DNA of 64,000 nucleotides from Xenophilus azovorans DSM 13620 (GTDB lineage: Bacteria; Pseudomonadota; Gammaproteobacteria; Burkholderiales; Burkholderiaceae_C), in contig NZ_JQKD01000016.1 in the NCBI RefSeq assembly GCF_000745855.1, positions 1 through 64,000 of the forward strand, read 5' to 3'. Under the pieces are notes generated by a model that saw only the letters and a list, made by a program, of their open reading frames with translations, was not told the origin of the DNA and did not search any database. Made by a program: the position numbers and the translations under genes. Positions 3 through 21,373 of this stretch are shown in pieces; position 1 is the first letter of the stretch; every line of letters begins with the position of its first letter.

Positions 3-422
3 GTCGGTGGCCTGCTGGGCGGCGACCTGCTCGGCGGCGTGCTGGGCGAAGACGGCCTGGTCGGCAGCCTGCTCGGCGGCGACGCGCTCGGTGGCGATCT
101 GCTCAGCGGCGTGGTCGGCGAAGGCAGCATCGTCGACAGCGTGATCGACACGATCGCCGGCGAGGACGGTCTGGTCGGCAACCTGATCGACACGGTCGCC
201 GGCGATGGCGGCCTGGTCGGCGGTCTGCTGGGCGGCGACGCGCTCGGCGGCGACCTGCTCGGCGGCGTCCTCGGCGAGGACGGCCTCGTCGGCAACCTGC
301 TCGGCACCGTCGCCGGCGCCGACGGCGGCCTGCTGGCCCCGGTGACCAGCCTGCTGTCGGGCAACGAGAGTGGCGGCGCCCTGGCGCCGGTGGACAACCT
401 CCTGCGCGGCCTGCTGGGCTGA
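3..422 (+). CDS. Gly/Leu/Asp-rich repeat protein, 5'-truncated by the window edge
   Basis: The reading frame is open from the first bases of the window and ends at TGA 420-422, so only the C-terminal part is present. The first possible internal start (GTG at 39) lies inside the repeats and is unlikely to be real. The visible 139 residues are almost entirely Gly, Leu, Asp, Val and Ala, in imperfect repeats built on GEDGLVGNLL and GGDALGGDLLGG. The protein ends in a non-repeat tail, APVDNLLRGLLG. There is no Cys and almost no aromatic residue. Such low-complexity proteins in Burkholderiales are often labelled collagen-like or surface repeat proteins, without known function. Lying upstream of a complete type I secretion trio, it may be the exported substrate, with the hydrophobic tail as signal. 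That role is inferred. Confidence 0.6.
   Translation, partial: VGGLLGGDLLGGVLGEDGLVGSLLGGDALGGDLLSGVVGEGSIVDSVIDTIAGEDGLVGNLIDTVAGDGGLVGGLLGGDALGGDLLGGVLGEDGLVGNLLGTVAGADGGLLAPVTSLLSGNESGGALAPVDNLLRGLLG
20..300 (+). repeat. In-gene degenerate repeats encoding the Gly/Leu motif
   Basis: The DNA here repeats with the period of the protein motif. The stretch around 18-70 recurs near 240-298 with mostly third-position changes, and shorter copies occur near 156-185. Synonymous differences between copies show selection on the protein motif rather than a very recent DNA duplication. Confidence 0.6.
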
Positions 423-478
423 TGCAGCCAGCGCGGCCGCATCCGCGGCCGCGCGCTCCCCCTCCTGCGAGACGCAAC

Positions 479-1000
479 ATGACAGATCACCACCGACTCC
501 ATCACCGCCTGGCACCCCTGCTGGCGCTGGCCGCCGTGGTCGCCGGCTGCGCCAGCGGCCGCCCGGGCCAGGACGACACGAGCTACTACTACTCCAACCG
601 CCAGAGCCCGTCGACCGTGGCGCCGGTCGTGGCGCGCCCGGCGCCGATGCCGCGCGCGCCCGGTCCGCAGGGCGTGGCCCGCATCGTCTACTTCGACTTC
701 GACCGCTTCGAGGTGAAGCCCGAGTACCGGGACGTGGTGCAGGCGCACGCCGACTACCTGCGCAGCCGGCCCCAGGCGCGCGTGGTGCTCGAAGGCCACA
801 CCGACTCGCGCGGTGGCCGCGAGTACAACCTCGCGCTGGGCCAGCGCCGCGCGGATGCGGTGGCGCAGCGCATGCGCCTGGGCGGCGCCAACGGCGCGCA
901 GATCGACACCATGAGCTGGGGCATGGAGCGGCCCGCGTCCAACGAGCTCACCGAGGCCGGGCACCAGCTCAACCGCCGCGTCGAGTTCGTCTACCGCTGA
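479..1000 (+). CDS. OmpA-family outer-membrane lipoprotein
   Basis: A 173-residue lipoprotein. From the ATG at 479 it has a short basic N-terminus, a hydrophobic stretch and a lipobox VVAGC with Cys24 as lipidation site. An ATG at 422 would add an Arg/Pro-rich leader and spoil this signal. After a linker of about 45 residues comes an OmpA C-terminal domain beginning VYFDFDRFEV, with the peptidoglycan-binding motif GHTDSRGGREYN followed by LGQRRADAV, and ending NRRVEFVYR. It should anchor the outer membrane to the cell wall non-covalently, like Pal. Its place between the repeat protein and the secretion genes suggests it stabilises the export complex or tethers the secreted product at the surface (inference). 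Confidence 0.85.
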   Translation: MTDHHRLHHRLAPLLALAAVVAGCASGRPGQDDTSYYYSNRQSPSTVAPVVARPAPMPRAPGPQGVARIVYFDFDRFEVKPEYRDVVQAHADYLRSRPQARVVLEGHTDSRGGREYNLALGQRRADAVAQRMRLGGANGAQIDTMSWGMERPASNELTEAGHQLNRRVEFVYR

Positions 1001-1014
1001 GGTCGCCGCGGCCC

Positions 1015-4000
1015 ATGTCCGCCCTGCCATCTCCTCCCGCCTTGGACGACCTGCCGGAAGGCAGGTCCGACGACGGCGCCGAGCGGACGCCGCTGAACCT
1101 GCAGCAGATGCTGCAGGCCTGCCGCGAGCGCATCGCCCCCGTCTGCACGGAGGTGCCGGCGCCCTTTCCGGCGTTCACGCTGATCTTCTCGGTGACCGAC
1201 GGCCAGCGCCGCGCCCGCGTCACGCACGTGCGCGGCGACAGCTTCGACGACGCCTGGTCCGAGGGTGCCCGCCAAGTGCTGAAGGACGCCGGCGCGCGCG
1301 CCCTGGCCTCGCCCTGGCTGCGGGTGGACTGGGTGGAGGGCGTGAGCAAGCTGGCCTGGGGCCAGTTCGAGGCCCACCTGAAGAACGTCAAGCGCAACTA
1401 CTTCCGCCTCGGCCTGGCGCTGGACGCCGGCTTCGACCGCCTGCTGACCGAGCAGGAGCTCAACGCCAACGCCATGCTCTACGCCGGCCCGCAGGTGGCG
1501 AGCGCGCAGTTCAACAAGAACAACTTCGAGATCTACCTGCGCACGCGCTTCCCGCACGAGCCCACGGCGGACTTCGACGCCGCGCGCGAGGTCTACCTGC
1601 TCGCCACCGCCGGCGTGTTCTGCCAGGACGACGGCGTGGTGCACCGGCTGGCCGGCCCCGGGCTGGACGCCGGCCGCCGCCAGATGCCGGCGCTCACCGC
1701 CCGCAGCACGCTGGCGCTGGTGGCCGGCGGCAGCGGGCACCTGGCGCGGCAGGTGCAGCCCAGCGGCCAGTTCGTCTACGGCCTGTTCCCCTGCTTCGAC
1801 CGCCGCATCCCCGGCTACAACACGCTGCGCCACGCCAGCTCGCTCTACGCGATGCTGGAGGCCTGGGAGCTCACGCGCGACGCGGCGCTGATGCAGGCCA
1901 TCGAGCGCAGCCTGGCCTTCATGTGCGGGCAGCTCATCCGCGAGCGCGTGCTGCCCGACGGCACCCACGCCGCCTTCCTGGTGGACGTGGCCGACGAGAT
2001 CAAGCTGGGCGGCTGCGCCGTCTGCCTGCTGGCGCTGGCCAAGCACGCCGAGGCCACCGGCAGCCGCGAGTGGCTGGCGCTGATGGAGCGGCTGGCGCAG
2101 GGCATCGGCTTCATGCAGGACCGCGCCAGCGGCCGCTTCGTCCACGTGCTCCACGCGCACGACCTGTCGGTCAAGCAGGCCTCGCGCATCGTCTACTACG
2201 ACGGCGAGGCCGCCTTCGGCCTGATGCGGCTGTACGCGCTGACGCGCGACCCCCGCTGGCTGCTCATGGTGGAGCAGGCCTTCGAGCACTTCATCGCCAG
2301 CCAGCACTGGCAGGCGCACGACCACTGGCTGAGCTACTGCGTGAACGAGCTGACGCGCTGGCGGCCGCGCGAGAAGTACTTCCGCTTCGGCATCCAGAAC
2401 GTCGCCGGCTACCTGGACTTCGTGCTCGACCGCAAGACCACCTTCCCCACGCTGCTGGAGCTGATGCTGGCCGCGCACCAGATGCTCGAACGGCTGCAGG
2501 AGCTGCCCGAGCTGCGCCACCTGCTGGACGAGGTGGACCTGGACAAGTTCCATCGCGCGCTGGACTTCCGCGCGCACTACCTGCTCAACGGCGTGTTCTG
2601 GCCCGAGCTGGCGATGTACTTTCGGCGACCGGCCTCCGTGGCCGGCGCCTTCTTCATCCGGCATCACTCGTTCCGCGTGCGCATCGACGACGTGGAGCAC
2701 TACCTGTCCGGCTTCGTCGGCTACCACCGGCTGCTGGTGGCGCGCGAGGCGGCGACCCACGACGACGCCGTCGCCGGCGGTCAATGGAGCGCCGAGGAGC
2801 TGGCGCAGGCCACCGGCGGCCGGTGGGTCGTGCCGCCGCCGCCGGGCTGGCGCGCCTCGGGCGTGGCGCCGCGCCTGTCGGCGCAGCGCAGCCACGTGCT
2901 GTGCGTGGAAGACGCCGCCCGCAGCGGCCGCGGCGCGCTGGTGCGCTCGCTGCAGAGCGCGCTGCGGCCGGCCGCCGCCATCCTGTGCAGCGATGCCGCA
3001 CCCCACCTGCACCGCGGCACCCCGCTGCTGCAGGTGGACGACGTGGCCCGGGCGATGCTGGCGCTGGGCGCGCGGGCGCGGGCGCGCTACGAAGGCCCGG
3101 TGGCCGGCATCGTCAGCGCCGGCGAGCCCAGCCGCCTGGCGGCCCTGCTCGCTGGAGCGCTGGGCATGCTGGGTCCGGTGGCCCAGCCCGAGGGCAACAC
3201 GCGCACGCCCAAGGGCACCGCCTGGAGCCTGTGCTGCATGCCGCGCTCGGCCGCGGCGTGGGTGGTCGACGTCGGCCGTTCGCCGCCGCCGGCGCTGATG
3301 CGGCTGCTGCAGCCCACGGTGCTGGTGCTGCCGCCGGCCGCCGCCGCACCCGGCGAAAGCGCCGACGAGCATGCGCGGGCGCGCGGCTCGCTGATGCGCG
3401 GGCTGCCGCCCGGCGTGCACCTGGCGGTGGCCGACCCGCGCGATGCGGCCGCACTGCATGCGGCAGGCCATGCCGGCCGTGTACTGACTTATGGCGAACA
3501 TGCGAACGCGCAGGTGCGGCTGCTGGGCGTGCACCAGGGCGAGGTGCGGCTGCTGGTACTGGACATCCCGCTGCAACTGCATCTGAAGGCCGCCGGTCTG
3601 GGCGTCGGCATCGAGGTCGCCGCCGCGCTGGCGGCGGTGCTGGCCCTCGGGCTGGCACCGGCCGAGGCGCTGCGCGCGCTGGGCCGGTCGACGCAGGAAG
3701 ACGAACTCGGCCCCTTCCACCGCATCCCGGTGGGCGACGGCGCCTTCCACCTGATCGACCAGAGCTACGACGCCAACCCCGCCTCGATGCGCGCCGCGCT
3801 GGCCCTGCTGGGCCAGGCGCCCTGCCCGCCGGCGCAGCGCGTGGCCCTGCTGGGCGACATGCAGGGCAGCGGCCACATGGGCCAGGCCCAGCACGAGGCG
3901 CTGGCGGAGCCGCTGCTGCAGGCGCAGCCCGACCGGGTGCTGCTGATCGGGCCGCTGATGCACTTCCTGCACCTGCGCATCCGCGGCCGCGTGCAGTCCC

Positions 4001-4134
4001 ACTGGTTCGCCGACGTGGCGGCGCTCTCCGACGCGCTGGGCGACATGCTGCGCCCGGGCGACTGGGTGCTGGCCAAGGCGTCGCGGCCCATGCGCCTGGG
4101 CCGCCTCACCCGCGCACTGAAGACGCTGGCATGA
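1015..4134 (+). CDS. Helical (alpha/alpha-type) domain fused to a MurF-like region lacking the P-loop
   Basis: A 1039-residue protein starting at ATG 1015, 15 bases after the OmpA gene. Residues about 1-580 are helical, with repeated Tyr- and Leu-rich blocks such as YNTLRHASSLYAML and YYDGEAAFGLMRLYAL. These resemble alpha/alpha-barrel sugar enzymes, but I cannot name the family. Residues about 590-1039 follow the three-domain plan of MurF, the UDP-MurNAc-tripeptide:D-Ala-D-Ala ligase: a WSAEELAQATGG start, a GN motif in QPEGNTRTPKG, the C-terminal signature LIDQSYDANPASMRAAL and LLGDM. The ATP-binding loop, normally GxxGKTT, reads SAGEPSRLAA near residue 701 and lacks the Lys. So the ligase part is probably inactive or reshaped. 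The context suggests a role in making or modifying an exported polymer or protein. It ends in an ATGA overlap with the next gene. Confidence 0.6.
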   Translation: MSALPSPPALDDLPEGRSDDGAERTPLNLQQMLQACRERIAPVCTEVPAPFPAFTLIFSVTDGQRRARVTHVRGDSFDDAWSEGARQVLKDAGARALASPWLRVDWVEGVSKLAWGQFEAHLKNVKRNYFRLGLALDAGFDRLLTEQELNANAMLYAGPQVASAQFNKNNFEIYLRTRFPHEPTADFDAAREVYLLATAGVFCQDDGVVHRLAGPGLDAGRRQMPALTARSTLALVAGGSGHLARQVQPSGQFVYGLFPCFDRRIPGYNTLRHASSLYAMLEAWELTRDAALMQAIERSLAFMCGQLIRERVLPDGTHAAFLVDVADEIKLGGCAVCLLALAKHAEATGSREWLALMERLAQGIGFMQDRASGRFVHVLHAHDLSVKQASRIVYYDGEAAFGLMRLYALTRDPRWLLMVEQAFEHFIASQHWQAHDHWLSYCVNELTRWRPREKYFRFGIQNVAGYLDFVLDRKTTFPTLLELMLAAHQMLERLQELPELRHLLDEVDLDKFHRALDFRAHYLLNGVFWPELAMYFRRPASVAGAFFIRHHSFRVRIDDVEHYLSGFVGYHRLLVAREAATHDDAVAGGQWSAEELAQATGGRWVVPPPPGWRASGVAPRLSAQRSHVLCVEDAARSGRGALVRSLQSALRPAAAILCSDAAPHLHRGTPLLQVDDVARAMLALGARARARYEGPVAGIVSAGEPSRLAALLAGALGMLGPVAQPEGNTRTPKGTAWSLCCMPRSAAAWVVDVGRSPPPALMRLLQPTVLVLPPAAAAPGESADEHARARGSLMRGLPPGVHLAVADPRDAAALHAAGHAGRVLTYGEHANAQVRLLGVHQGEVRLLVLDIPLQLHLKAAGLGVGIEVAAALAAVLALGLAPAEALRALGRSTQEDELGPFHRIPVGDGAFHLIDQSYDANPASMRAALALLGQAPCPPAQRVALLGDMQGSGHMGQAQHEALAEPLLQAQPDRVLLIGPLMHFLHLRIRGRVQSHWFADVAALSDALGDMLRPGDWVLAKASRPMRLGRLTRALKTLA

Positions 4135-4385
4135 CGACCGACTCCATCGCAGGCCAGCTCGAACGCCTGGGCATCCTCGACGCCCGCGAGGAGCCGGACC
4201 CGGTCTGGTACCGCGTGCTGCGCTTCGTGTGCATCTGGCTGTACCTGATGCTGTTCTGCGCAGGCGCGGCGCTGCTGCTCACGCACATGGCCCGCCCGGC
4301 ATCCGCCTCGGTATCCGCGCCGCCGGCAGCAGCGGTCGGATGCGGGGCGACGGCGTGCGCGGCGGAAGTGAAGACACAAGAGTAA
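4131..4385 (+). CDS. Small single-helix membrane protein of the secretion cluster
   Basis: An 84-residue protein whose ATG overlaps the stop of the upstream fusion gene (ATGA), so it is translationally coupled. The soluble N-terminus carries acidic residues and Trp/Tyr. One transmembrane segment covers about residues 27-51 (starts YRVLRFVCIWLYLMLF). The tail of about 30 residues is Ala/Pro-rich and contains two Cys (VGCGATACAAE). No family is recognised. The size, topology and position suggest an inner-membrane accessory of the type I secretion system or an anchor for the upstream fusion protein. Confidence 0.6.
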   Translation: MTTDSIAGQLERLGILDAREEPDPVWYRVLRFVCIWLYLMLFCAGAALLLTHMARPASASVSAPPAAAVGCGATACAAEVKTQE

Positions 4386-4390
4386 CTGCT

Positions 4391-4406
4391 TGTTAACATT
4401 TGTGTC
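4391..4406 (+). promoter_or_regulatory. AT-rich 16-mer similar to one upstream of flp
   Basis: TGTTAACATTTGTGTC sits 6 bases after the stop of the small membrane gene and 30 bases before the GTG of the ABC gene. It matches 13 of 16 positions at 21596-21611 upstream of the flp pilin gene. It stands out as AT-rich in a very GC-rich region, but the similarity could be chance. A shared regulator or an internal promoter are both possible. Confidence 0.25.
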
Positions 4407-4436
4407 CTCACCCTCCAACCCGATGAAGCCGAGCCC

Positions 4437-6263
4437 GTGCTGAAGTACCTGCTGCCCCGTCAACTCGCGGCGCCCTCGGCCAGCGCCGACGAAGCCCATC
4501 CGCATGCCGATGCCCTCGGGCGCGCCTTCGAGGGCTCCTTCGGGATGATCCGCTCGGCGGCGTGGTGGTCCATCCCGATCAGCCTGTCGGGCCTGCTGCC
4601 GTCGATCTTCCTGCTGCAGGTGTACGACCGGGTGATCTACCGCAACGGCACCTCCACGCTGTGGGCGCTGGTCAGCGGCATCCTGTGCTTCCTGGCGATC
4701 GAGTTCTGGCTGCGCACGCGCCGCTCGCGGCTGCTGCGCGACGCCGGCGCCACCATCGACCACGAGGTGTCCAACGCGCTGATGCGCTCGATGCTGGAGC
4801 GCCCGCTGCGCGCGCTGGAGGCGCGCCCCGCCTCCATGTGGTTCCTGCTGTTCCGCGACGTCGGCTCGGTGCGCGGCACCATCACCGGCGGGCTGGCGCA
4901 GTCGATCTTCGACCTGCCGATGGCGATCTTCGCGCTGGTGGTGATCGGCATCGTGGCGCTGCCGGTGCTGCCGGTGGTGATGGCCTTCCTCGGGGTGATG
5001 TCCTTCCTGGCCTGGTGGTGGGCCGACGAGGTGCGCGCCGGCCGCGTCGAGGAGGCGCAGCGCAGCCGCGGCCTGGAGCGCATGACGGCGGAGATCTGCA
5101 ACGCCCGCGAGACGCTCAAGACGCAGGCCAACGACGGCCCGACGCTCGCGCGCTGGCGCGAGACCTACGACGCCTGGCTGGCCGAGAGCTTCCGCAAGAA
5201 CGGCGAGATCGAGCGCGCGCGCGACGGCACCACGGTGCTGCTGACCATCTTCTCCACGGTGGTCATCACCGTCGGCGCCGTCGCCGTGATGCAGCAGTGG
5301 ATGACGGTGGGCGGCCTGGTGGCCTCCAACATGCTGGCGCTCAAGGCGCTGCAGCCGGTGGCGGGGCTGGTGTCGAACTGGCGCGCGCTGGCCATCGCCT
5401 CCGAGGCGGCCAAGCGCCTGGAGAAGGTGCTGGGCGAGCCGGTGGAGAAGCCGCCGCTGGCGGTGCAGCTGCCGCAGCCGCGCGGCCTGCTCACCCTGCG
5501 CGGCATGGGCTTCGGCTTCAGCCCCGAGCTGGCGCCGGTGCTGGAGGACGTCGACCTGAGCATCGGCCCGGGCGGGCTGCACGCCATCGTCGGGCGCAAC
5601 GGCGCCGGCAAGTCCACGCTGGTCAAGCTGCTGTCGGGGCTGTACGCGCCCACGCGCGGCACGGTGGAGATCGGCGAGTACGACCTCTCGCAGTTCGGCC
5701 GCGCCGAGCTGGCGAACTGGATCAGCTACCTGCCGCAGGAGGTGTACTGGTTCGCCGGCGAGCTGATGGACACGCTGCGCCGCTGCGCGCCCGGCCAGAA
5801 CGACGAGCAGATCGTCGGCGCCTGCCGCCTGGCCGGCGCGCACGAGTTCATCTCGCGCCTGCCCGACGGCTACCGCACGCGGGTGGGCGAAGGCGGCACC
5901 GGCCTGTCGGTGGGCGAGCGGCGCAAGCTGGCGCTGGCGCTGAGCTTCCTGCGCAACCCCTCGGTGCTGATCCTGGACGAGCCGAGCAACGACCTGGACA
6001 TCGCCAGCGAGCGGGCGCTGCTGGCCACGCTGCTGGCGGTGGCGCGCACGCGCACGGTGATCGTCGTCACCCACTCGCTGCGCATGGTGTCGGCCGCCAG
6101 CCACGTCTACCACGTGACGGGCCGCGGCGGCATCGAGCAGGGGCCGGCCTCGGTCATGGTGCCGCGGCTGTTCGGCGTGAAGAAGGCCACCGCCGTGGGC
6201 GAGGAGGAAGGCGCGCCGCAGGCCAGGCCCGAGATGGCCTCGATGGCCGTGCCCGCGGCCTGA
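4437..6263 (+). CDS. Type I secretion ABC transporter, permease-ATPase (PrtD/LapB-like)
   Basis: A 608-residue half-transporter that would energise export across both membranes. The GTG at 4437 is the first usable start; the ATG at 4423 is in another frame and closes after six codons. Residues about 40-320 form the membrane domain with several hydrophobic segments (ISLSGLLPSIFLLQVYDRV is typical of the type I secretion family). The ATPase domain has Walker A GRNGAGKST near 386, Q-loop LPQEVYW, Walker B VLILDEPSNDLD near 509 and H-loop VTHSLR. The signature motif reads LSVGERRK near 490 instead of LSGGQ, a clear departure. There is no N-terminal C39 peptidase, so double-Gly leader cleavage is not expected here. 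It is followed by the HlyD and TolC partners. Confidence 0.88.
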   Translation: MLKYLLPRQLAAPSASADEAHPHADALGRAFEGSFGMIRSAAWWSIPISLSGLLPSIFLLQVYDRVIYRNGTSTLWALVSGILCFLAIEFWLRTRRSRLLRDAGATIDHEVSNALMRSMLERPLRALEARPASMWFLLFRDVGSVRGTITGGLAQSIFDLPMAIFALVVIGIVALPVLPVVMAFLGVMSFLAWWWADEVRAGRVEEAQRSRGLERMTAEICNARETLKTQANDGPTLARWRETYDAWLAESFRKNGEIERARDGTTVLLTIFSTVVITVGAVAVMQQWMTVGGLVASNMLALKALQPVAGLVSNWRALAIASEAAKRLEKVLGEPVEKPPLAVQLPQPRGLLTLRGMGFGFSPELAPVLEDVDLSIGPGGLHAIVGRNGAGKSTLVKLLSGLYAPTRGTVEIGEYDLSQFGRAELANWISYLPQEVYWFAGELMDTLRRCAPGQNDEQIVGACRLAGAHEFISRLPDGYRTRVGEGGTGLSVGERRKLALALSFLRNPSVLILDEPSNDLDIASERALLATLLAVARTRTVIVVTHSLRMVSAASHVYHVTGRGGIEQGPASVMVPRLFGVKKATAVGEEEGAPQARPEMASMAVPAA

Positions 6264-6301
6264 CGCGGCCGGCCCGCATCCGCCTGGAGGGAAACGAAGC
6301 G

Positions 6302-7618
6302 ATGAAGAACGACCTGCCCCAGATCCTGCAGCACATCGCCGGCCAGGAGCCGCCGACGCCGGCGCCGCGCCGGTCGCGCCGCCGCTGGCTGCTCGGCGTC
6401 GCGGTCGCGCTGCTCGCCGCGATCGCGCTGGGCTATCCCATGGAGACGGTGGTGGTGGCGTCCGGCCGGGTCATCCCCTCCGACCGGGTCAAGTCCATCC
6501 AGCACCTGGAGGGCGGCATCGTGCGCGCCGTGGCCGTGCGCGAGGGCCAGCTGGTGCGCCAGGGCCAGCCGCTGGTGGAGATCGACCTGGGCGGCAGCAG
6601 CCTCAACCTGGAGGAGCTGACCGCGCGGCACGCCGCCATGCAGGCCACGCGCGTGCGCCTGGGCGCCGAAAGCCGCGGCGAGCCGCTGGCGCGCGAGCGC
6701 TTCGCCGAAGGCACGGACGAATCCGTGCTGCGCGGCGAGATGGGCGCCTACGAGGCGCGCGCGCTGGAGCAGCGCGGCGTGATGGCCGCCGCCGTCGCCA
6801 GCCTGGAGCAGGCGCGCAGCCGCCAGATGGAGCAGCACGCCAAGATCGCCGGGCTCAACGAGCGCCTCGCGCTCATGCAGACCGAGCTGAAGATTTCCGA
6901 GCAGTTGCTCAGCGAGAAGCTGATCGGCCAGCTCGAAGTGCTGGAGAAGCGGCGCCAGGCCGAGAGCGCACGCGCCGAGCTGGCGGTGGCGCGCCAGGGG
7001 CTGGTCTCGGCCGCCGCCGCCATCGGCGAGGCGCAGGCCAAGATGGCCGAGGCCGAGGGCAGCTTCCGCCGCCGCGCCTCGGACGAGCTGGCCACGGTGG
7101 AACGCCAGCTCTCCAGCCTGGCCGAGGACCTGGCGCGCGCACGCACGCAGCGCTCGCGCACCGTGGTCACGGCGCCGGCCGACGGCATCGTCAAGGGGCT
7201 GCGCAGCGCCAGCCCGGGCTGGGTGGTCAAGCCCGGCGAGACCATCCTGGAGGTCGTGCCCGACGAGGACGAGGTGATGGTCGAGGCGCGGCTGAGCCCC
7301 AACGACCGCGGCTTCGTGCACGCCGGCCAGCCGGCGCGCGTGAAGATCACCGCCTACGACTTCCTGCGCTACGGCACCGTGGACGGCAAGGTGGTGCTGG
7401 TCGCCGCCGACGCCGACCGCGACGCCACCCTGCCCACCGCGCCGCCCTACTACCGGCTGCTGGTGAACACGAAACAGTCGCACGTCGGCCGGCCCGAGAA
7501 CCGCATCACCGCCGGCATGGAGGCCGAGGTGGACCTGCTCGTGGGCACCGATCCCTTCATCTGGTACATGCTGCGGCCGGTGCTGAAGCTGCAGCGCGAA
7601 GCCTTCCGCGAGCCATGA
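6302..7618 (+). CDS. HlyD-family type I secretion periplasmic adaptor
   Basis: A 438-residue membrane fusion protein. ATG 6302 is preceded by the ribosome site GGAGGG at a good distance. A basic cytoplasmic N-terminus (PRRSRRRW) is followed by one transmembrane helix at about 31-48. A biotinyl-lipoyl half begins GGIVRAVAVREGQLVRQGQPLVEID. A long Ala/Glu/Arg-rich coiled-coil hairpin spans about residues 95-285, then the second lipoyl half (VVTAPADGIVKGL) and a beta-barrel domain. The family signature near the C-terminus (ITAGMEAEVDLLVG) is present. It bridges the inner-membrane ABC protein upstream and the outer-membrane TolC protein, whose ATG overlaps this stop. Confidence 0.92.
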   Translation: MKNDLPQILQHIAGQEPPTPAPRRSRRRWLLGVAVALLAAIALGYPMETVVVASGRVIPSDRVKSIQHLEGGIVRAVAVREGQLVRQGQPLVEIDLGGSSLNLEELTARHAAMQATRVRLGAESRGEPLARERFAEGTDESVLRGEMGAYEARALEQRGVMAAAVASLEQARSRQMEQHAKIAGLNERLALMQTELKISEQLLSEKLIGQLEVLEKRRQAESARAELAVARQGLVSAAAAIGEAQAKMAEAEGSFRRRASDELATVERQLSSLAEDLARARTQRSRTVVTAPADGIVKGLRSASPGWVVKPGETILEVVPDEDEVMVEARLSPNDRGFVHAGQPARVKITAYDFLRYGTVDGKVVLVAADADRDATLPTAPPYYRLLVNTKQSHVGRPENRITAGMEAEVDLLVGTDPFIWYMLRPVLKLQREAFREP

Positions 7619-9141
7619 TCCGTCGCATCCTTCCCGGCACCCTGCTCGCCCTGGCGGCGATGGCCGACGCCGCCTGGGCCGCCGCGCCCGCCGCCCTGCC
7701 CGGCGCGGCGCTGACGCCGGCGCGCCGCCTCGCGGCCCCGTCGCTGGGCGCCAACGGCTATGCCGCGCGCGTGAAGGAGGCGCTTCGCACGCTGGCCCAC
7801 GACCATCCCGAGGTGCTGTCCGCGCAGGCCGCCGCCGCCACCAGCGGCTTCGAGGTGGAGTCCGCCAAGCAGGCGCGCTACCCGCGCTTCAAGGTCGGCA
7901 GCGCCTCGGGCAGCTACGACAGCGGCGCGGACGGCGCCTCCTCCCGGAACTACCAGCTCATCACCGCCGAGGCGCGGATGAGCCTGATCGACGGCGGCGC
8001 CATCAGCGCGCGCGTGCGCGCCGCCGAGGCGGGCAGCCGGGCGCAGGACGAGGCGCTGTTCTCCACCTCGCAGAAGGTGGTGCTGGACGCCCTCACCGCC
8101 TACCTGCAGGTGCAGCGCTTCGACCTGCAGCGCGAGGTCGCGGCGCGCTCCACGCGCATCGTCGACGAACTCTCGCGCGCCGAGGAGCGGCGCGTGGCGC
8201 TGGGCGCCGCCGGCCAGAACGACCTGCGCATGGCCGCCGCGCGGCGCGCCAGCATCGCCGCGCGCGAATCCGACTTCGACGCGCAGCGCGGCGAGGCCAT
8301 CGCCAAGTTCGAGAGCTACTTCGGCTTCCGGCCCGACCCGCGCCGGCTGCCCGCGCTGGCCGCGCTGCCGGCCTGGGCCGGCGGCAGCCAGGAGGAGGTG
8401 CTACGCCGCGCCGAGAGCCGCAGCACCGAGCTGGCCGAGGGCCGCAGCCGGGTGGCGCGCGCCGAGGCGCAGGTCGACCAGCAGGAGGCCAGCCTCTGGC
8501 CCACGGTGGAGGCCGTCGTCGTCAAGACCAAGGACCCGCGCGGCGTCTCCCCTTCCGAGCCGACGCGGGCGGCGCTGGAGCTGAACTGGAACTTCGGCAG
8601 CGGCTTCGACCGGCAGCTGCGCGTGAAGTCGGCGCTGGCGGAGGTGGACAACCAGCAGGCCAAGCTGGAAGGCGCGCGGCGCAGCCTGTTCGAGGCCACG
8701 CTGTCGGCCTGGGGCCGCACCCAGGCCGGCCGCGAGCGCGAGCGCCAGCTGCAGGCCGCCGTGCAGGAGTCGGGCGAGGCCTTCCGCGGCCGCCGCCGGC
8801 TGCTGGAGTTCGGGCGCGAGACGCTGCCCAACGTGCTCGACGCCCAGCTCGACTACTACACGCTGGTGCAGGACTACATCGACGCCGTGTTCGACCTGCG
8901 CATCTCGGAGTTCCGCCTGGCGCGCGCCACCGGCGAGCTGCGCATCGAGAGCGGTGCGCCCAGCGCGTGGGTGGACCGCATCTTCGGCCCGGCGCGCGGC
9001 CCGCTGCTGGACGGCGACGGCGTGCTGGGCACGGGCTGCATCGCCGCCGCGGCGCCCTGCCGCGGCGGGCCGCAGCGCGGCCCCGGCGAAGGCGCCCAGG
9101 CGCTCGTGCTGCGCGGCGCCCGGCAGCTCGGCCAGCGCTGA
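7615..9141 (+). CDS. TolC-family outer-membrane channel of type I secretion
   Basis: A 508-residue protein starting by ATGA overlap with the adaptor gene. The first 23 residues are a Sec signal peptide ending AAWAA. The mature part has the duplicated helical layout of TolC, with DHPEVLSAQAAAATSGFEVESAKQ early and a second half around RVARAEAQVDQQEASLWPTVEA. It would form the trimeric outer-membrane duct. The last 60 residues (after WVDRIFGP) are a Gly/Ala-rich tail beyond the usual TolC fold. It is the last gene of the plus-strand export operon and converges with the sigma-54 regulator 16 bases away. Confidence 0.9.
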   Translation: MIRRILPGTLLALAAMADAAWAAAPAALPGAALTPARRLAAPSLGANGYAARVKEALRTLAHDHPEVLSAQAAAATSGFEVESAKQARYPRFKVGSASGSYDSGADGASSRNYQLITAEARMSLIDGGAISARVRAAEAGSRAQDEALFSTSQKVVLDALTAYLQVQRFDLQREVAARSTRIVDELSRAEERRVALGAAGQNDLRMAAARRASIAARESDFDAQRGEAIAKFESYFGFRPDPRRLPALAALPAWAGGSQEEVLRRAESRSTELAEGRSRVARAEAQVDQQEASLWPTVEAVVVKTKDPRGVSPSEPTRAALELNWNFGSGFDRQLRVKSALAEVDNQQAKLEGARRSLFEATLSAWGRTQAGRERERQLQAAVQESGEAFRGRRRLLEFGRETLPNVLDAQLDYYTLVQDYIDAVFDLRISEFRLARATGELRIESGAPSAWVDRIFGPARGPLLDGDGVLGTGCIAAAAPCRGGPQRGPGEGAQALVLRGARQLGQR

Positions 9142-9157
9142 GCACGGACCCGCCTCC

Positions 9158-10540
<1,383 letters not shown>

Positions 10541-10563: not shown

Positions 10564-12285
10564 TCAGTACACGAGCTGCGGCTCGCCGCAGGACAGGGAT
10601 TGATGATGGATGTCACTGTAGCCGAGCTGTACGCCGAGCAGGCCGAGCAGCGGCTGGACGACGCTGTCAAGCACGTCCAGCAGCGGCGCCAGCAAGTAGG
10701 TGTTGACGCGGTCGAGTATCTTGGTGAGTTCCCCGGCGTCCAGACACAAGAAGCTCAACGTGCACACCTGCAGCCGAAGCCCGCGGCCCAGGCCGCCAAC
10801 GGCGCTAGACAGCACGCCGCCCACCGCGTTGGAACTGCTGCGCTGAATGTCGTCCTCGTTGCCGATCACGCCGTCGAATTCCAGGGTGGCTGCCGTTCCC
10901 GGCGGCACCTGGGCCGACAGGGGCACGCGCGCCTTCACGTCCAGGAGACTGATGCCCAGCGCCGACACCTTGCCCACGGTCGCCGGCTCGCCGCAGTTAA
11001 CCGGTGCGGAGGTGTTGCGCATCTGCGCATCGCTGACGTCGGCGATGCACACGTTGGCCAGTCCAGGACTGGCGCCGATGAGCGCCCGTGATTCAGTCCG
11101 CGTAGCCGCGCACTGGATATCGCTCAGCCAGGCATCGCCCGGCGCGACCTCCAGGTAGACCGGCAGGTTCAGCGCCTTGATATCCACCAGGTTCCCGACC
11201 ACCGGAATGGCGGCAGTGTCCAGCACGCTCGCCTGCAGCAGCAGGCGCACGGTGGCCGAATGCGCCTGCGTCTTCCATTGGCCGTTCTCGTCGCGCCCCG
11301 CCTCGCCGATGGCGATGGAAGGCGGCTCGACGATGACCAGCTTGGTCGCCGCCGTCGCCAGCGGCGGCAGTTGCAGGCCGCCCGCCAGGTGGACCAGGTT
11401 CGATCCGTTGGCCACCTGCGCCGCTACCATCAGCAGCTCCAGCACGTTCACGTCAGCCGTGCCTGCGGCCTCGGGGTTCGTGGTGGTCACGTTCAGCAGA
11501 TCGCCGACCGTGACGGTCAGGGCGTCCAGGCCCAGGGCCGCCAGCCGGTTCAGCGCCGTCACGGCCACGGCATCGTCAGGCCCCAGCGCGCTGGCCATCA
11601 ATGCCAGCAGCTGGCCGACGCCCAGGCGGGTGTCGAGCAGTTCCTGCACCGTGCCCACCGAAGGCGCCAGCGCCACCAGATCGAGCAGCCGGACGTGCGC
11701 GTTCGCCAGGCCCTGGTAGCTGGCCAGGTCCAGCGCGACATTCGCATTCAGCAGCGCGCCGAGCAACTGGTTCACCGCCCCTGCGTTCAGGGCGGCCAGG
11801 CCGGTGCCCAGGGAGAAGCCCGCCGTGTTGCGCGCGGCGGCAGTCGCGGTGGCCGTCACGGTGCGCCAGCCGGCGCCCCACGAGAACGCGAAGAAGTACG
11901 GCACCTCGCGGCTGACCGTCACTCTCGCCGCGTTGAACGGCAGCGCGTCGGCCGCGAAGTGCTGTGGCGGCGACCCGGGGCCGCGGTCCAGCGCCGGGTT
12001 CCAGTTGCCGCACTGGATCGCCAGCTGATCGCCGGCATCGCGCACACCGTTGGCCCGTTCCAGTTGCGACGGCACCGCAGCGCGGCAGAAGTCCTCGCCG
12101 TTCGCGCGCGCCATGGCCGCCAGGTCGGCGATGCGCTGCACCTCGCGCTGCTGCCAGAACAGGTAGCCGACGTCGATCACCATCAGGCAGGTGACGGCCA
12201 GCAGCAGCCACAGCGCGCCCAGCACCGCGACGGCACCGCGCTGCACCGCACGACAGGCAGGGCTTCGCGCGGCCGCTGCGTTCAT
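10564..12285 (-). CDS. tadG: TadG-like Tad pilus assembly protein
   Basis: A 573-residue protein. Its start ATG overlaps the stop of the DUF3613-type gene (ATGA). The N-terminus has the TadE/TadG pattern: a short basic segment, [20 protein letters not shown] as single membrane helix, then [14 protein letters not shown]. The large outer part is unusually rich in Leu, Ala, Val and Asn, with runs like [16 protein letters not shown], and has scattered Cys. TadG proteins are membrane-anchored pilus assembly factors with an extracytoplasmic domain. I do not see a von Willebrand A motif. The base composition is a little less GC-rich than that of the neighbouring tad genes. There is no separate TadF, so this protein may cover that role. 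Confidence 0.75.
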
Positions 12286-12608
12286 CGGCCGGCCATGCCC
12301 GATGCCTTCTCGCCCACGGAGGACTTGAAGTGCTCGGGTATCTCGTGTTCGAAGCTCTTGAGATAGCGCGCCCGGCTGCGCTGGGCCACCTCGCCCGGCA
12401 CCGGGCGCGGCACCTCGGAGGCCATGCGCCCCTCGCGCTGCAGGGCCAGCAGGCGATGGGTCGCCTCGCCGACGTGGCGGGTGTACGGCGGCCCGGCCGG
12501 CGGGGCTTCGGCGGCGGTGGCATCGGCCGCCGCGGCGCCGGAAGACATCGCGGCCATGCAGGCCGCGCCCAGCGCGCAAACAAGATGTCGATGCAGTGGC
12601 AGGCGCAT
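12282..12608 (-). CDS. DUF3613-type exported protein of the Tad locus
   Basis: A 108-residue protein with a Sec signal peptide (residues 1-28, cleaved near SSGAAAA). The mature domain has the pattern GEATHRLLALQREGR, then RARYLKSFEHEIPEHFKSSV, which I recognise as the DUF3613 family seen in Tad loci of Burkholderiales. Its function is unknown. It starts 14 bases after tadD and overlaps the next gene by 4 bases, so it is made with the pilus apparatus and probably acts in the periplasm. Confidence 0.7.
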   Translation of the reverse strand: MRLPLHRHLVCALGAACMAAMSSGAAAADATAAEAPPAGPPYTRHVGEATHRLLALQREGRMASEVPRPVPGEVAQRSRARYLKSFEHEIPEHFKSSVGEKASGMAGR

Positions 12609-12622
12609 GTCGAAAGGCTCCT

Positions 12623-13540
12623 TCAGGGCTGGCCGGGTTCGGCGGTGGATCCGGGCGCGGCGGGCACTTGCCCGCCCTGCGCCATCTCCACGCGGCGCAC
12701 ACCCACGTGGATACGCCGCGCCTCCCGCCACCCGGCGGGGCGCAGGCTCAGCCCGTCCGGTGCCGCAGCAGCAGCAGCGGCGGCCGGACGGGCGGCGTGT
12801 ACGGCGGCGGCCTCGCGCGCCAGGCGGGCGGTGGCCTGCACCGCCTCGCGCGATCCGGCGGCCATCCGCCGGGCGTCCAGCAACCGCGCGGCCTCGTCCT
12901 GCTGCCCGTCGGCGGTCAGCCAGGCGGCCAGGTTGAGCTGGATGCGCGGGTTGTCGGGCTGCAGCTGCGCCGCCTGCATCAGCGGCACGCGCGCCTCGGC
13001 GATCCGGCCGGCGCGCAGCCGCGCATAGCCCAGGTCGTTGAGCAGCAGCGCATCGGTCGGCTGCTGCCGCTGGGCCTGCGCCAGCAGTTCGGCCGCGCGG
13101 TCGAACGCGCCTTCCGCGCCCGCCAGCAGGCCCAGCCCGTGCAGGCCGGCGGCGGCCTCGGGCGTGCCCGCCAGGCGGGCATAGGCCTGGCGGCTGGCCT
13201 CGGCCTGGCCGGTGTGGCGCAACGCGTCGGCGCGCAGCCGCGTGGTGGCGGGCGTCGGCCCGGCGCGCTGCTCGAACTGGTCGATGTGGGCCAGCGAGGC
13301 GTACCACAGGCCCTCGCGCTGCATCTGCTCGATCAGTCGGCGGTGCGTGGCCTGCGGGTCGGCCACGGCGCCGGCGGGCAAGGCGTCGGCCTGCGCGCTG
13401 CGCTGCGCCAGCTGCTGCGCCTCGGCGCCAGGGTAGCTGGCCTTCGGCGTGCCGCAGGCGGCCAGCAGGCCGGCCGCCAGCAGGCACAGGGCGGGCCGCA
13501 GGCATGCGGCCGGCGGGGTCTGCGTCGTGCGGTCGCTCAT
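12623..13540 (-). CDS. tadD: TadD, TPR lipoprotein for secretin assembly
   Basis: A 305-residue lipoprotein with lipobox LLAAC and Cys29 as lipidation site. Tetratricopeptide-like repeats cover about residues 60-240 (for example ALLLNDLGYARLRAGRIAEARVPLMQAAQLQP). TadD-type pilotins help the CpaC/RcpA secretin reach and assemble in the outer membrane. The C-terminal 60 residues are Ala-rich and low complexity. The ATG overlaps the tadC stop (ATGA), and the gene is followed closely by the DUF3613-type gene. Confidence 0.85.
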   Translation of the reverse strand: MSDRTTQTPPAACLRPALCLLAAGLLAACGTPKASYPGAEAQQLAQRSAQADALPAGAVADPQATHRRLIEQMQREGLWYASLAHIDQFEQRAGPTPATTRLRADALRHTGQAEASRQAYARLAGTPEAAAGLHGLGLLAGAEGAFDRAAELLAQAQRQQPTDALLLNDLGYARLRAGRIAEARVPLMQAAQLQPDNPRIQLNLAAWLTADGQQDEAARLLDARRMAAGSREAVQATARLAREAAAVHAARPAAAAAAAAPDGLSLRPAGWREARRIHVGVRRVEMAQGGQVPAAPGSTAEPGQP

Positions 13541-14496
13541 TTCGTCATCGATCCCAGGGTGCGGATGATGGCCAGGAAGCCGGGGCCCGCCGTCACGATC
13601 AGCAGCGCCGGCAGCAGCGTGGTCACCATCACCGCGGTCATCTTCACGGTGGTCTTGCCGATGCGTTCCTTCAGCTCGGCGCGGCGCTGCTCGCGCAGGC
13701 GCTCGCCGAACAGGCGCAGCGGCTCCTGCACGGCGCCGCCGTGGCGGTCGATCTGAACCAGCAGCCCGACCAGGCCGGCCAGGTTGTCGTTGCCGTGCAG
13801 CGTGGCCAGGCGCTGCAGCGAGTGCTCGCGCGTGCGGCCCCGCGCGTAGAGGTTGGCCGCCACCTCCACCTCGCGCCCCAGCACCTTCAGCACGTCGCCG
13901 AAGTCGCTCACGATGATCTGCAGGCTCTGGTCCAGGCTCAGGCCGACGCCCTGCAGCAGGCGCAGCAGGTCCACGAACAGCGGCAGCTCGCGGGCCACCT
14001 GCGCGCGCCGGCGCCGCGCGTGGGCCGACAGCGCCCACTTGGGCAGCATGAAGCCGAGGGTGAAGGCGATGGCGGCCAGCAGCATCACGCGGCTGCGCAC
14101 GTGGCCGGCCTGCGCCAGCAGCAGCACGAGCAGCGGCAGCCCGGCGGCCAGCACCGCGCGCGCCGCCAGGAAGAGGAGCTGCGCCCGCACCGAAGGCCAG
14201 CCGCACTGGTCGATCAGGCGGCGGTCCTCGTCGGCCACCAGCAGGCGGCCCAGGCGCGTGCGCAGCCAGTGGCTGGGCAGGTCGCGGCCGCGGCCGTCAG
14301 GTGCGGCCTCGGCCGGCGCACCGCCGTCGCCGCCCGCCGCGGCCGCCGTGGCGCGCGCCTCGCGCTCGATGGCGCGGCCGACCACCTCGCGCCCGCGCAG
14401 GCGCGCCACCTCGCGCCGCACGAAGGCGCCGGCCACCAGCAGCAGCGCGGCCAGGGCCAGCGCGGCGCTGAGCACGTAGAGGACGGTGGGGGACAT
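13537..14496 (-). CDS. tadC: TadC, inner-membrane platform protein
   Basis: A 319-residue GspF-like type II secretion F domain protein. There is one N-terminal membrane helix, a charged loop with an Ala/Gly-rich stretch (ATAAAAGGDG), two central helices (AARAVLAAGLPLLVLLL and MLLAAIAFTLGFMLP) and one near the C-terminus (VMVTTLLPALLIVT). The F-domain core ELPLFVDLLRLLQGVGLSLDQSL is typical of TadC. It would pair with TadB to form the platform on which the CpaF ATPase acts. Start ATG 14496 lies 14 bases after tadB. Confidence 0.9.
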   Translation of the reverse strand: MSPTVLYVLSAALALAALLLVAGAFVRREVARLRGREVVGRAIEREARATAAAAGGDGGAPAEAAPDGRGRDLPSHWLRTRLGRLLVADEDRRLIDQCGWPSVRAQLLFLAARAVLAAGLPLLVLLLAQAGHVRSRVMLLAAIAFTLGFMLPKWALSAHARRRRAQVARELPLFVDLLRLLQGVGLSLDQSLQIIVSDFGDVLKVLGREVEVAANLYARGRTREHSLQRLATLHGNDNLAGLVGLLVQIDRHGGAVQEPLRLFGERLREQRRAELKERIGKTTVKMTAVMVTTLLPALLIVTAGPGFLAIIRTLGSMTK

Positions 14497-14510
14497 GCGC
14501 TCGCCTCCCC

Positions 14511-15473
14511 TCAATCCAGCCGTGCCAGTCGGTACAGCAGCACGGCGCCCAGGAGCTGCAGCCCGCCGGCGCCGAAGAGCAGCATGCGGCCCGTCGGGTC
14601 CTGCCACATGCGGGTGAAGTAGGCCGCGTTGAGCATGACGATCGCGAAGCCCACCGCCAGCGGCAGCAGGCCCAGGATCCAGGCCGACAGCCGCGTCTCG
14701 GAGGACAGCGCCATCAGCTCCTGCTCGGCCTGCTCGCGGTCGCGCATGAAGTGGGCCACGCGCTCCAGCAGCAGATCGGCCCGGCCGCCGTAGCGCACGC
14801 TCAGGCCGAGGATGGCCGCCAGCAGCGCCATCTCCTCGATGCGCACGGCGCGGGCGGTCTGGTGCAGCGCCTGGTCCAGCTCCACGCCGGCGCGCACCAG
14901 GCTGGCGGCGCGCTCCAGGTGCCCGCGCAGCGGCTCGGCGCTGTTGCCGACCGAGAGCTGGAAGGCGGCCTGGGTGGAGTTGCCGATGGTGATCAGGCGC
15001 ACCATCGCGTCGATGAAGGGCGGCAGTTGCTGCGCCAGCCGGCGCCGCAGCCGCTGCACCGCCAGCCACAGCGCGAAGGCGCCGAGCGCCGTGCACAGCA
15101 CGGCCGCGCCGGCGGCGGCCACCGGCCCGAGGGCGATGCCCGCGACCGCCACCGCCAGCAGCACGAGGGCCAGCCCGGCCAGCAGCCGGCCGGGCTCGAC
15201 GGCGCCGTCGAGCCAGCCGGGCATCCAGCGCGCCGGCCGCCGCGCGGGGGCGGCAGCGGCCTGCGCCGGCGGCGCCGCTTCCGGCAGGTCGGCCAGCGCG
15301 CGCATCCAGGGCGCCGCGTCCTGCGGCAGCTGGTCGCCGGCGCGCAACTGGCGTTCGAGGTGCTCGCCGGCGCGCTGGCGCGCGCGCTCGCGTGCCGCCC
15401 ATGCCCACAGCCACAGGGCCGCCGCCGCCAGCAGCGCCGCGGCGGCCAGCACCAGCAGCTGGCGTTCAGCCAC
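14511..15473 (-). CDS. tadB: TadB, inner-membrane platform protein
   Basis: A 320-residue paralogue of TadC. The GTG start at 15473 overlaps the cpaF stop by 8 bases, so it is translationally coupled. It has an N-terminal helix (LLVLAAAALLAAAALWLWAW), paired central helices around 100-140, the F-domain segment LPPFIDAMVRLITIGNSTQAAFQL and C-terminal helices (SAWILGLLPLAVGFAIVML, LLFGAGGLQLLGAVLL). It partners TadC in the Flp pilus platform. Confidence 0.9.
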   Translation of the reverse strand: MAERQLLVLAAAALLAAAALWLWAWAARERARQRAGEHLERQLRAGDQLPQDAAPWMRALADLPEAAPPAQAAAAPARRPARWMPGWLDGAVEPGRLLAGLALVLLAVAVAGIALGPVAAAGAAVLCTALGAFALWLAVQRLRRRLAQQLPPFIDAMVRLITIGNSTQAAFQLSVGNSAEPLRGHLERAASLVRAGVELDQALHQTARAVRIEEMALLAAILGLSVRYGGRADLLLERVAHFMRDREQAEQELMALSSETRLSAWILGLLPLAVGFAIVMLNAAYFTRMWQDPTGRMLLFGAGGLQLLGAVLLYRLARLD

Positions 15474-16776
15474 GCCGCTCCCCTGCCGCGCGCATCGCCT
15501 GGCGCAGGCGCGCGATCTTGGGCGAATGCGGGGCGATGCCCAGCGAGACCCAGCGGTCGCGGTCCGCGCCGTCGGCGCCGTGCACCGGCTCGTGGCGGAA
15601 CAGCTCCTGCATCGCCACCACGTTGTCGTTGACGCCGGTGATCTCGGAGATCGACAGGATGCGCCGCTCGCCGCCGGGCAGGCGGCCGATCTGCACGATG
15701 AAGTCGATGGCGTTGGCGATCTGCCGGCGCAGGCTGACCTCGCTGCCCTGGTAGCCGGCGAAGCCGGCCAGCATCTCCAGCCGGTACAGGCACTCGCGCG
15801 GCGAGCTGGCGTGGATGGTGCCCATCGAGCCGTCGTGGCCGGTGCCCATGGCCTGCAGCATCTCGATCACCTCGGCGCCGCGCACCTCGCCCACGATGAT
15901 GCGGTCGGGCCGCATGCGCAGGCTGTTGCGCAGCAGGTCGCGGATGGTCACCACGCCGGCGCCGTCGAAGCCGCCGGGCCGGCTTTCCAGCCGCACCACG
16001 TGCGAGTGCCCGAGCGCGAGCTCGGCGGTGTCCTCGATGGTCACCACGCGCTCGCCGTCGGGGATGAAGGTGGCCAGCGCATTGAGCAGCGAGGTCTTGC
16101 CCGAGCTGGTGCCACCGCTGACCAGCACGTTGCAGCGCGCCCGCACGGCCAGTTCCAGCAGTTGCGCGATGCCGGCGTCGAAGGTGCCGAGCTTGATCAG
16201 GTCGGCCGGCGTGAGCGGGTCCTTGCGGAACTTGCGGATCGACACCGACACGCCGTCGATGGCCAGCGGCTCGATGATGACGTTGATGCGCCCGCCGTCG
16301 GGCAGGCGCGCGTCGACCATCGGGTTGGCCTCGTCCAGCCGCCGCCCGATGGGCGCCAGGATGCGACGCACGATGCGGATCACGTGCTCGTCGTCGGCGA
16401 AGCGCAGCGATTCGCGCTGCAGCATGCCGCGCCGCGACACGTACACGCTCTTGTGGCCGTTGATGAGGATGTCCTCCACCGCCGGGTCGGCCAGCAGGTC
16501 CTCCAGCGGGCCGAAGCCGGCCAGCTCCTTGGTCAGCGCATCGGCGATCAGCTGCGTCTCGCGCTCGTTGATCGGCACGCGCTGCATGCGCACGAAGCTC
16601 TCCAGCTCCAGCTCGACGAACTGCTGGATCGACTGGCGCGACCAGCGGCCGAACTCTGCCCCCAGCTCCTCGATGCGCGACAGCAGGTGGTCGTGCATCC
16701 AGGCCTTGATGTCCTGGAACTGCTGCGACTGGACGAACTTCTGGCCGTCGTCGGAAAACTCGATCTCTGCTTCCAT
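15466..16776 (-). CDS. cpaF: CpaF/TadA pilus ATPase
   Basis: A 436-residue type II/IV secretion ATPase that powers Flp pilus assembly. After an N-terminal helical region comes FGPLEDLLADPAVEDILING, typical of CpaF. It has Walker A GGTSSGKTS near residue 217, an Asp box IEDTAELAL, a Walker B-type motif PDRIIVGEVRG, and a His box GHDGSMGTIHASSP. All catalytic motifs appear intact. Start ATG 16776 is 11 bases after cpaE. Unusually, no flanking pilus gene is missing, so the motor should work with TadB and TadC encoded downstream. Confidence 0.93.
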   Translation of the reverse strand: MEAEIEFSDDGQKFVQSQQFQDIKAWMHDHLLSRIEELGAEFGRWSRQSIQQFVELELESFVRMQRVPINERETQLIADALTKELAGFGPLEDLLADPAVEDILINGHKSVYVSRRGMLQRESLRFADDEHVIRIVRRILAPIGRRLDEANPMVDARLPDGGRINVIIEPLAIDGVSVSIRKFRKDPLTPADLIKLGTFDAGIAQLLELAVRARCNVLVSGGTSSGKTSLLNALATFIPDGERVVTIEDTAELALGHSHVVRLESRPGGFDGAGVVTIRDLLRNSLRMRPDRIIVGEVRGAEVIEMLQAMGTGHDGSMGTIHASSPRECLYRLEMLAGFAGYQGSEVSLRRQIANAIDFIVQIGRLPGGERRILSISEITGVNDNVVAMQELFRHEPVHGADGADRDRWVSLGIAPHSPKIARLRQAMRAAGERRG

Positions 16777-16787
16777 CCCGATGGTCC

Positions 16788-19441: not shown

Positions 19442-19472
19442 GAAAGGCACGGCGCGGAGCATCGGGGTTCGG

Positions 19473-20453: not shown

Positions 20454-20486
20454 GGATGGGAGGCTCGGGCGGCTCGGCGTGAAGGG

Positions 20487-21367: not shown

Positions 21368-21373
21368 TGATCA

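Follow-up and report, generated by a model that had tools for sequence, protein, structure and literature searches.

The first 9.1 kb of a 64,000-nucleotide stretch of Xenophilus azovorans DSM 13620 (contig NZ_JQKD01000016.1, positions 1 to 64,000 of the forward strand; here called the window) carry a gene cluster that, in the interpretation we favor, is responsible for a large adhesin, its modification, and its export. An N-terminal domain of one of its products, a fusion protein, is predicted to fold as an (alpha/alpha)-toroid and probably modifies an (Asp-X)n tract of the adhesin covalently, in the cytosol and before export, perhaps by sugar-type chemistry. The toroid is conserved, and it accompanies (Asp-X)n tracts across phyla, secretion routes, and gene clusters. 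The cluster comprises seven co-directional genes with the functions that an earlier note on this DNA had given them: a repeat protein, an OmpA-like lipoprotein, the fusion protein, a protein with one hydrophobic stretch, an ATP-binding cassette (ABC) protein, an HlyD protein, and a TolC protein. Below, the letters G, L, and C with a number label genomes, loci, and contigs, respectively; the X. azovorans genome (6.5 Mb) is G000, and the window starts at base 1 of its contig C13.

An (Asp-X)n tract accompanies the toroid

Tracts were counted strictly, as at least 12 D[ASGNT] units (at least 24 residues, with X being A, S, G, N, or T). Such a tract lies near the toroid in 57 of the 80 loci kept from Pseudomonadota relatives, and where at least 8 kb was available on either side, the count was 43 of 44 loci (17 genera by record title, with Variovorax contributing 21 of the 44), versus 14 of 36 loci with truncated flanks. 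The lone miss among the 44 is a Halomonas locus (L083) in which the adhesin is clipped by the contig end. The median distance from tract to enzyme gene is 4.5 kb, and the longest tract has 1340 residues. Dicodons are mixed along the tracts (3 to 13 different ones per locus), and this mixing of synonymous codons argues that the peptide, and not only a DNA repeat, has been kept by selection.

As a control, we used 40 hand-picked stretches around LssB-type ABC genes above the model cut-off (34 genomes, with 9 stretches shorter than 19 kb), leaving out G109 and G224, where a toroid lies beside the ABC gene, and other places, including some in the toroid-bearing genomes G133, G163, and G211. These type I secretion system (T1SS) stretches contained a tract in 0/40 cases and a toroid in 0/40 (Fisher's exact test against the toroid loci, 2.7e-23, with relatedness ignored). 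A coarse count of tract-pattern 24-mers in a phylum sample gave at least one match in 173 of 398 genomes and is hence noisy, but of the 14 genomes with a strong toroid match, 7 had at least 7 hits on a strand, versus 7 of the 384 others (Fisher's exact test, 3.5e-8), the weak toroid matches of G141 and G096 being counted among the 384. This test misses other codings, such that G224 (SD) and G362 (DG) fail it even though their tracts adjoin the toroid, and the seven others that pass it have, in the stretches fetched, runs of at most 26 residues (G376, G281, G034, G149, and G318) or no run (G181), or have scattered hits (G349).

The association extends to other secretion routes. In G362, the neighbor of a toroid standing alone is an autotransporter (Pfam beta-domain, 4.5e-46) whose (DG)n tract spans 178 residues. 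A toroid was found in 54 of 72,556 plasmid records, and a tract of at least 24 residues is present in 15 of the 17 plasmid loci that were fetched. In the tract-bearing Staphylococcus haemolyticus locus, pls is followed by a gene for a 538-amino-acid toroid protein and then by a Mur ligase gene; in that of Staphylococcus epidermidis (L189), which also has a tract, the toroid gene is followed by an adjoining glycosyltransferase family 4 (GT4) gene; and in a Listeria locus, a toroid alone accompanies an LPXTG protein with 262 residues of DA. The other tract-bearing plasmid loci are from Staphylococcus simulans, Staphylococcus aureus pWBG759, Enterococcus (two), Klebsiella, Sulfitobacter, Agrobacterium, Rhizobium, and Nitratireductor. 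The staphylococcal plasmid relatives are 33 to 36% identical to the query toroid over 85 to 97% of its length. No T1SS genes were seen in the toroid stretches with autotransporter or LPXTG-type proteins. The plasmid toroid proteins are labeled poly(glycerol-phosphate) alpha-glucosyltransferase or Mur ligase, and the former label looks doubtful in view of the predicted fold. According to the record annotation, the Sulfitobacter toroid locus (L183) adjoins genes for a type I polyketide synthase and a condensation domain.

The adhesin linker and the state of the toroid

Clusters of the window's own type allowed the adhesin linker to be compared with the state of the toroid. An ABC gene at E <= 1e-180 is present in 16 of 299 genomes of the family, with the toroid strong in 9, decayed in 2, and not found in 5; two more clusters with a decayed toroid (G141 and G504) were taken from weak toroid matches. 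Where the linker could be seen, it was of the (DX)n kind in all 7 clusters with a conserved toroid (G632, G700, G431, G567, G625, G450, and G030) and in 0 of 8 clusters in which the toroid is decayed (G141, G704, G606, and G504) or was not found (G481, which shows the linker end only, G663, G506, and G603), a difference at 1.6e-4 by Fisher's exact test. In place of (DX)n, the latter clusters have linkers of the PTDPTN, TNPTDT, PTG, GAT, or T/G/N type. Three genomes were excluded from the comparison: G011 and G588 (the latter also without a detected toroid), in which the adhesin N terminus falls beyond the contig, and G000, whose tract lies on C25. Some genomes of the comparison recur among the 80 loci (G567, for example, is L094). 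The G141 toroid retains only 7 of the 42 residues that are invariant elsewhere, and the P-loop of the G141 Mur domain is intact.

The cargo is a putative adhesin with an Asp-Ala tract

The repeat-protein gene of the earlier note is present, but only as a C-terminal fragment (3..422, plus strand) with Gly/Leu repeats, since the window begins at the first base of its contig and the gene is clipped there. At the start of contig C25, in the same genome and in reverse orientation, lies a matching N-terminal adhesin part that reads off the contig end and consists of a retention-module-like module (identified by eye), a (DA)n tract with an interrupting N run, and Gly/Leu repeats, in that order. We infer that the two parts, on contigs that remain unjoined, belong to one gene. 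In the complete relatives L060 and L030, the same order of module, tract, and repeats occurs within one protein, and the adhesin gene is followed by an OmpA-like gene, the fusion gene, and T1SS genes. If the two Xenophilus parts are one gene, a surface protein with an (Asp-X)n tract is present near the toroid of this genome as well. The proposal that the repeat protein is the cargo is supported. With its (Asp-Ala)n tract, which lies on C25, the putative Xenophilus cargo shares a feature of BapA-type T1SS adhesins. The BapA prefix model (NF033677) matches the adhesins of L183 and L191.

The toroid domain is predicted to have an epimerase-like fold

The fusion protein has 1039 amino acids (1015..4134, plus strand). 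Its first ~580 residues (1015..2754, plus strand) gave no match above the cut-off in curated Pfam or NCBIfam families, and no glycosyltransferase family matched the toroid in these scans; weak signals of glycoside hydrolase (GH) families GH88, GH127, and GH76 were seen in 10, 6, and 3 of 49 toroid relatives, respectively. AlphaFold2 modeling on a 49-row alignment gave a predicted local distance difference test (pLDDT) score of 92.7 and a predicted template modeling (pTM) score of 0.90, and the nearest folds in the PDB are cellobiose 2-epimerases and isomerases of the N-acylglucosamine 2-epimerase (AGE) family (best E, 2.7e-7; template modeling [TM] score by target, 0.60; 13% identity). The domain is thus predicted to be an (alpha/alpha)-toroid with a fold like that of the AGE superfamily, from which it differs in having an N-terminal extension and only 7 to 14% identity among the 50 matches listed. 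In an alignment of 58 toroids from Pseudomonadota and Bacillota, 42 residues are invariant. The earlier description of a "helical-MurF fusion" stands for the MurF-like half (residues ~650 to 1036, with its P-loop gone), whereas the helical half is a distinct conserved domain.

The toroid occurs in several architectures: alone (Xenophilus, Listeria, and Halopseudomonas), as toroid-Mur, as toroid-CapA-Mur, often with an adjacent alpha/beta hydrolase, and with a separate Mur gene (Staphylococcus and Nitratireductor). A second toroid gene of X. azovorans itself, on contig C36 (L109:9341-14922), encodes a toroid-CapA(PGA_cap)-Mur protein whose P-loop is intact, and an alpha/beta hydrolase is adjacent. 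In G093 and G238 (L161 and L158), the toroid genes adjoin genes that appear by eye to be pilin like, with no adhesin in the stretch. Two loci (L111 and L167) have distant toroid-like proteins (22 to 25% identity) near genes that are kinase like (by eye) and Mur like (by blastp), and these proteins perhaps point to a wider superfamily.

The MurF-like domain appears to be accessory

The C-terminal half of the fusion protein (residues ~650 to 1038; 2962..4128, plus strand) resembles MurF over residues 650 to 1036 (NCBIfam E of 2.4e-35, below the model cut-off) and contains a Mur_ligase_C domain (Pfam, 4.7e-11). The P-loop of an active Mur ligase, G..GK[ST], is absent from the window's protein, which has SAGEPSR at that site (3115..3135, plus strand). 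The P-loop is retained at this site in 35 and lost in 37 of the 72 two-domain fusions, which include a piece of the frame-broken G030 gene; the window's protein is among the 37, all of which belong to clusters of the window's type. Xenophilus and two Variovorax clusters (L080 and L082) have a toroid gene without a Mur domain.

Relaxed decay of the Mur domain was considered and rejected, because among pairs at 0.6 to 0.7 toroid identity, mean Mur identity is 0.489 without the P-loop (277 pairs) versus 0.494 with it (292 pairs). Since the P-loop-less domains are as well conserved as the intact ones, they may have a noncatalytic role. With the P-loop lost here, intact in many relatives, and the domain separate or absent in others, the MurF-like domain is, as far as these comparisons indicate, an accessory one. 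A literature search, confined to one library and not aimed at epimerases or the AGE family, listed no paper linking a Mur ligase to such repeats.

Other genes of the cluster and its surroundings

Between the adhesin and fusion genes lies the gene for an OmpA/Pal-like lipoprotein of 173 amino acids (479..1000, plus strand; Pfam OmpA, 1.8e-19; Pal model, 4.3e-35, with 119.9 bits against a cut-off of 125.35). The fusion gene is followed by genes for an 84-amino-acid protein with a single hydrophobic stretch, seen by eye, and no family above the Pfam or NCBIfam cut-off (4131..4385, plus strand); a short-form type I secretion ABC permease/ATPase (4437..6263, plus strand; ABC_tran and ABC_membrane above the Pfam cut-offs, LssB and PrtD models below the NCBIfam ones); an HlyD-family T1SS adaptor (6302..7618, plus strand; TIGR01843 above the cut-off); and a TolC-family outer membrane protein (7615..9141, plus strand; Pfam OEP, 1.7e-39; TIGR01844 below the cut-off). 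The T1SS is thus complete, as the earlier note had claimed, with HlyD above the NCBIfam cut-off and ABC and TolC above the Pfam but below the NCBIfam cut-offs.

The cluster is bordered by a gene for a sigma-54 activator (9158..10540, minus strand), a relative of which lies within six genes of the toroid in 36 of 91 loci. Adjoining this gene are Tad pilus genes (window positions 10564 to 22997, minus strand), two of which were checked in Pfam. A Lap system was rejected for the X. azovorans cluster, since LapG (PF06035) was not found in the genome (0/1); near the toroid in relatives, LapD-like genes were seen in 11 of 91 loci and LapG-like genes in 4 of 91 (by clustering, with one of each checked).

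Comparison with known systems

The closest published counterpart of the toroid is probably GtfC of S. aureus COL (SACOL0051), a 538-amino-acid protein that is encoded immediately downstream of pls and is not a CAZy-predicted glycosyltransferase (PMC5230774, consulted in excerpt). Full glycosylation of the SD repeats of Pls is reported to require GtfC, as judged by periodic acid-Schiff (PAS) staining: GtfC with GtfD gives full staining of Pls, versus weak (COL) or no (strain 1061) staining with GtfD alone, and the SD-repeat region withstood proteases (PMC5230774). The toroid relative in L179 has 538 amino acids, and its gene lies downstream of pls; the S. haemolyticus protein, which matches GtfC in size and place, can be aligned with the window's toroid at 32% identity over 534 positions. 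The link to GtfC itself runs through size, place, and the 69% identity of both GtfC (in the same excerpt of PMC5230774) and the S. haemolyticus protein to an S. epidermidis protein. On sequence grounds, we take the S. haemolyticus-type proteins encoded beside pls and the window's toroid to be one GtfC-like family. The two settings differ: GtfC is free standing with a glycosyltransferase partner, whereas the window's toroid is encoded in a T1SS cluster and joined to a Mur domain without a P-loop. SdgA and SdgB likewise act on Asp-containing dipeptide repeats of surface proteins (PMC8561734, in excerpt), but they have a GT-B fold, whereas the toroid has no glycosyltransferase family match.

BapA of Paracoccus denitrificans, exported in the BapA/BapBCD system, is, like the Xenophilus protein, a T1SS adhesin with an Asp-Ala tract; it has 891 Asp-Ala repeats and is needed for attachment and biofilm formation (PMC5588039, in excerpt). 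BapA runs above its predicted mass on gels, and its authors, who do not exclude modification, suggest calcium binding as the role of the tract and describe the function of the SdrC Ser-Asp repeats as not known (PMC5588039). The consulted excerpt of that paper mentions no toroid. The view that no described system has this gene set thus holds for the set itself, but not for its parts: BapA is a described Asp-Ala T1SS adhesin, and GtfC, a toroid relative by place and size, has published mutants and is in that sense a characterized homologue.

A model for modification of the adhesin before export

We propose that the adhesin, in which an N-terminal module is joined through an (Asp-X)n linker (Asp-Ala in this case) to a Gly/Leu-repeat body, would be made in the cytosol, where the toroid of the fusion protein would act covalently on the linker. 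The modified adhesin would then leave via ABC-HlyD-TolC and may be retained at the outer membrane by its N-terminal module. Action of the toroid on the tract would most simply explain why the domain occurs alongside the tract of such unrelated proteins and is decayed or absent in clusters with a different linker. The suggestion in the earlier note that the fusion protein might act on the cargo before export gains support as a possibility, and the cluster probably serves surface adhesion. Because Asp is constant and X varies, Asp or its backbone is probably what the enzyme recognizes or modifies. Sugar-type chemistry is suggested by the predicted fold and, by analogy, by the GtfC data; the candidate chemistries are sugar-type (fold and PAS staining), Asp directed (the fixed residue), and precursor supply.

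Several observations weigh against this reading. The toroid, a predicted enzyme, resembles epimerases and hydrolases rather than glycosyltransferases, which means that its connection with PAS staining could be an indirect one. Some toroid copies have no tract in the stretch that was fetched: the second X. azovorans copy on C36 (none within 20 kb), two in G431, and one each in G211, G093, and G238; those of G195, G180, and G133 also have none, but their contigs are of 8 to 12 kb. On plasmids, a Variovorax locus (L194) has no tract and an Acinetobacter baumannii locus has only a run of ~15 residues, in the N-terminal piece of an adhesin. In the phylum sample, only 7 of the 14 strong-toroid genomes reach 7 tract-pattern hits per strand, and runs of 12 to 26 residues, including DA, exist in genomes without a toroid. 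The T1SS control stretches were unmatched for adhesin type, and the tract of a giant adhesin could fall outside them. In the linker comparison, the toroid gene of G030 is frame broken in the assembly, yet it is counted among the seven conserved ones, and the eight clusters without a conserved toroid probably stand for about three lineages. Finally, the BapA prefix-like domain (NF033677) had no match in the adhesins of L060 and L030.

The strongest rival, although we consider it rather unlikely, is that the toroid makes or interconverts a sugar precursor and a separate glycosyltransferase attaches the sugar to the repeat. An AGE-type fold would suit such an enzyme, as would the GT4 gene adjoining the toroid in S. 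epidermidis L189 and the increase in PAS staining in S. aureus COL from weak with GtfD alone to full with GtfC and GtfD (PMC5230774, in excerpt). However, among the annotated plasmid loci that were read, an annotated glycosyltransferase besides the toroid was seen only in L189, the partner elsewhere being a Mur ligase, CapA plus Mur, or none, and an enzyme that supplies a precursor would not have to track the sequence of the tract, as the toroid does.

A role of the fusion protein in export or assembly, as part of a new T1SS, which was the view of the earlier note, now seems very improbable. Its gene does lie between the adhesin and ABC genes, and an ABC- or HlyD-like protein is encoded within six genes of the toroid in 76 of 91 loci (some of the ABC ATPases perhaps being unrelated), but clusters of the same type lack the toroid or have a decayed one, the toroid also occurs beside autotransporter and LPXTG-type proteins, and it is absent from the 40 other T1SS stretches. 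No more credible is production of a separate polymer (such as poly-glutamate or cyanophycin) that is exported with the adhesin: the long form has Mur ligase and PGA_cap (CapA) domains, but 37 of the 72 two-domain forms have lost the P-loop, other forms have no Mur domain, and the constant partner of the toroid is the tract. A poly-glutamate synthase was rejected on the same grounds, the Mur domain being P-loop-less or missing in many cases despite CapA and Mur in the long forms. Mere cotravel of toroid and adhesin as a mobile cassette, which the 54 plasmid records might suggest, is very improbable given the unrelated surface proteins, unrelated secretion routes, and differing gene orders, and given the decay of the toroid where the linker differs in otherwise similar clusters.

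A more far-reaching version of the modification model is a tentative one that we hold to be possible but on balance doubtful. The tract would be a genetically templated scaffold, and the toroid would found a new class of Asp-acting peptide-modifying enzyme (for example, one that isomerizes or epimerizes Asp or links a sugar to its side chain), with Mur or Mur-CapA adding amide-linked groups to the same carboxylates. Cyanophycin synthetase adds amide-linked groups to poly-Asp carboxylates. The C-terminal half of the fusion protein is MurF like, as in MurF and cyanophycin synthetase, but differs from them here in the absence of the P-loop.

Asp-Ala and Ser-Asp tracts recur in surface adhesins with their role open, and a conserved accompanying enzyme offers a direct handle on them. 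GtfC, so far regarded as a glycosyltransferase, may be an enzyme of another kind. If the scaffold model were true, surface proteins of the type I, type V, and sortase-anchored kinds would share a single modification system in both Gram-negative and Gram-positive bacteria.

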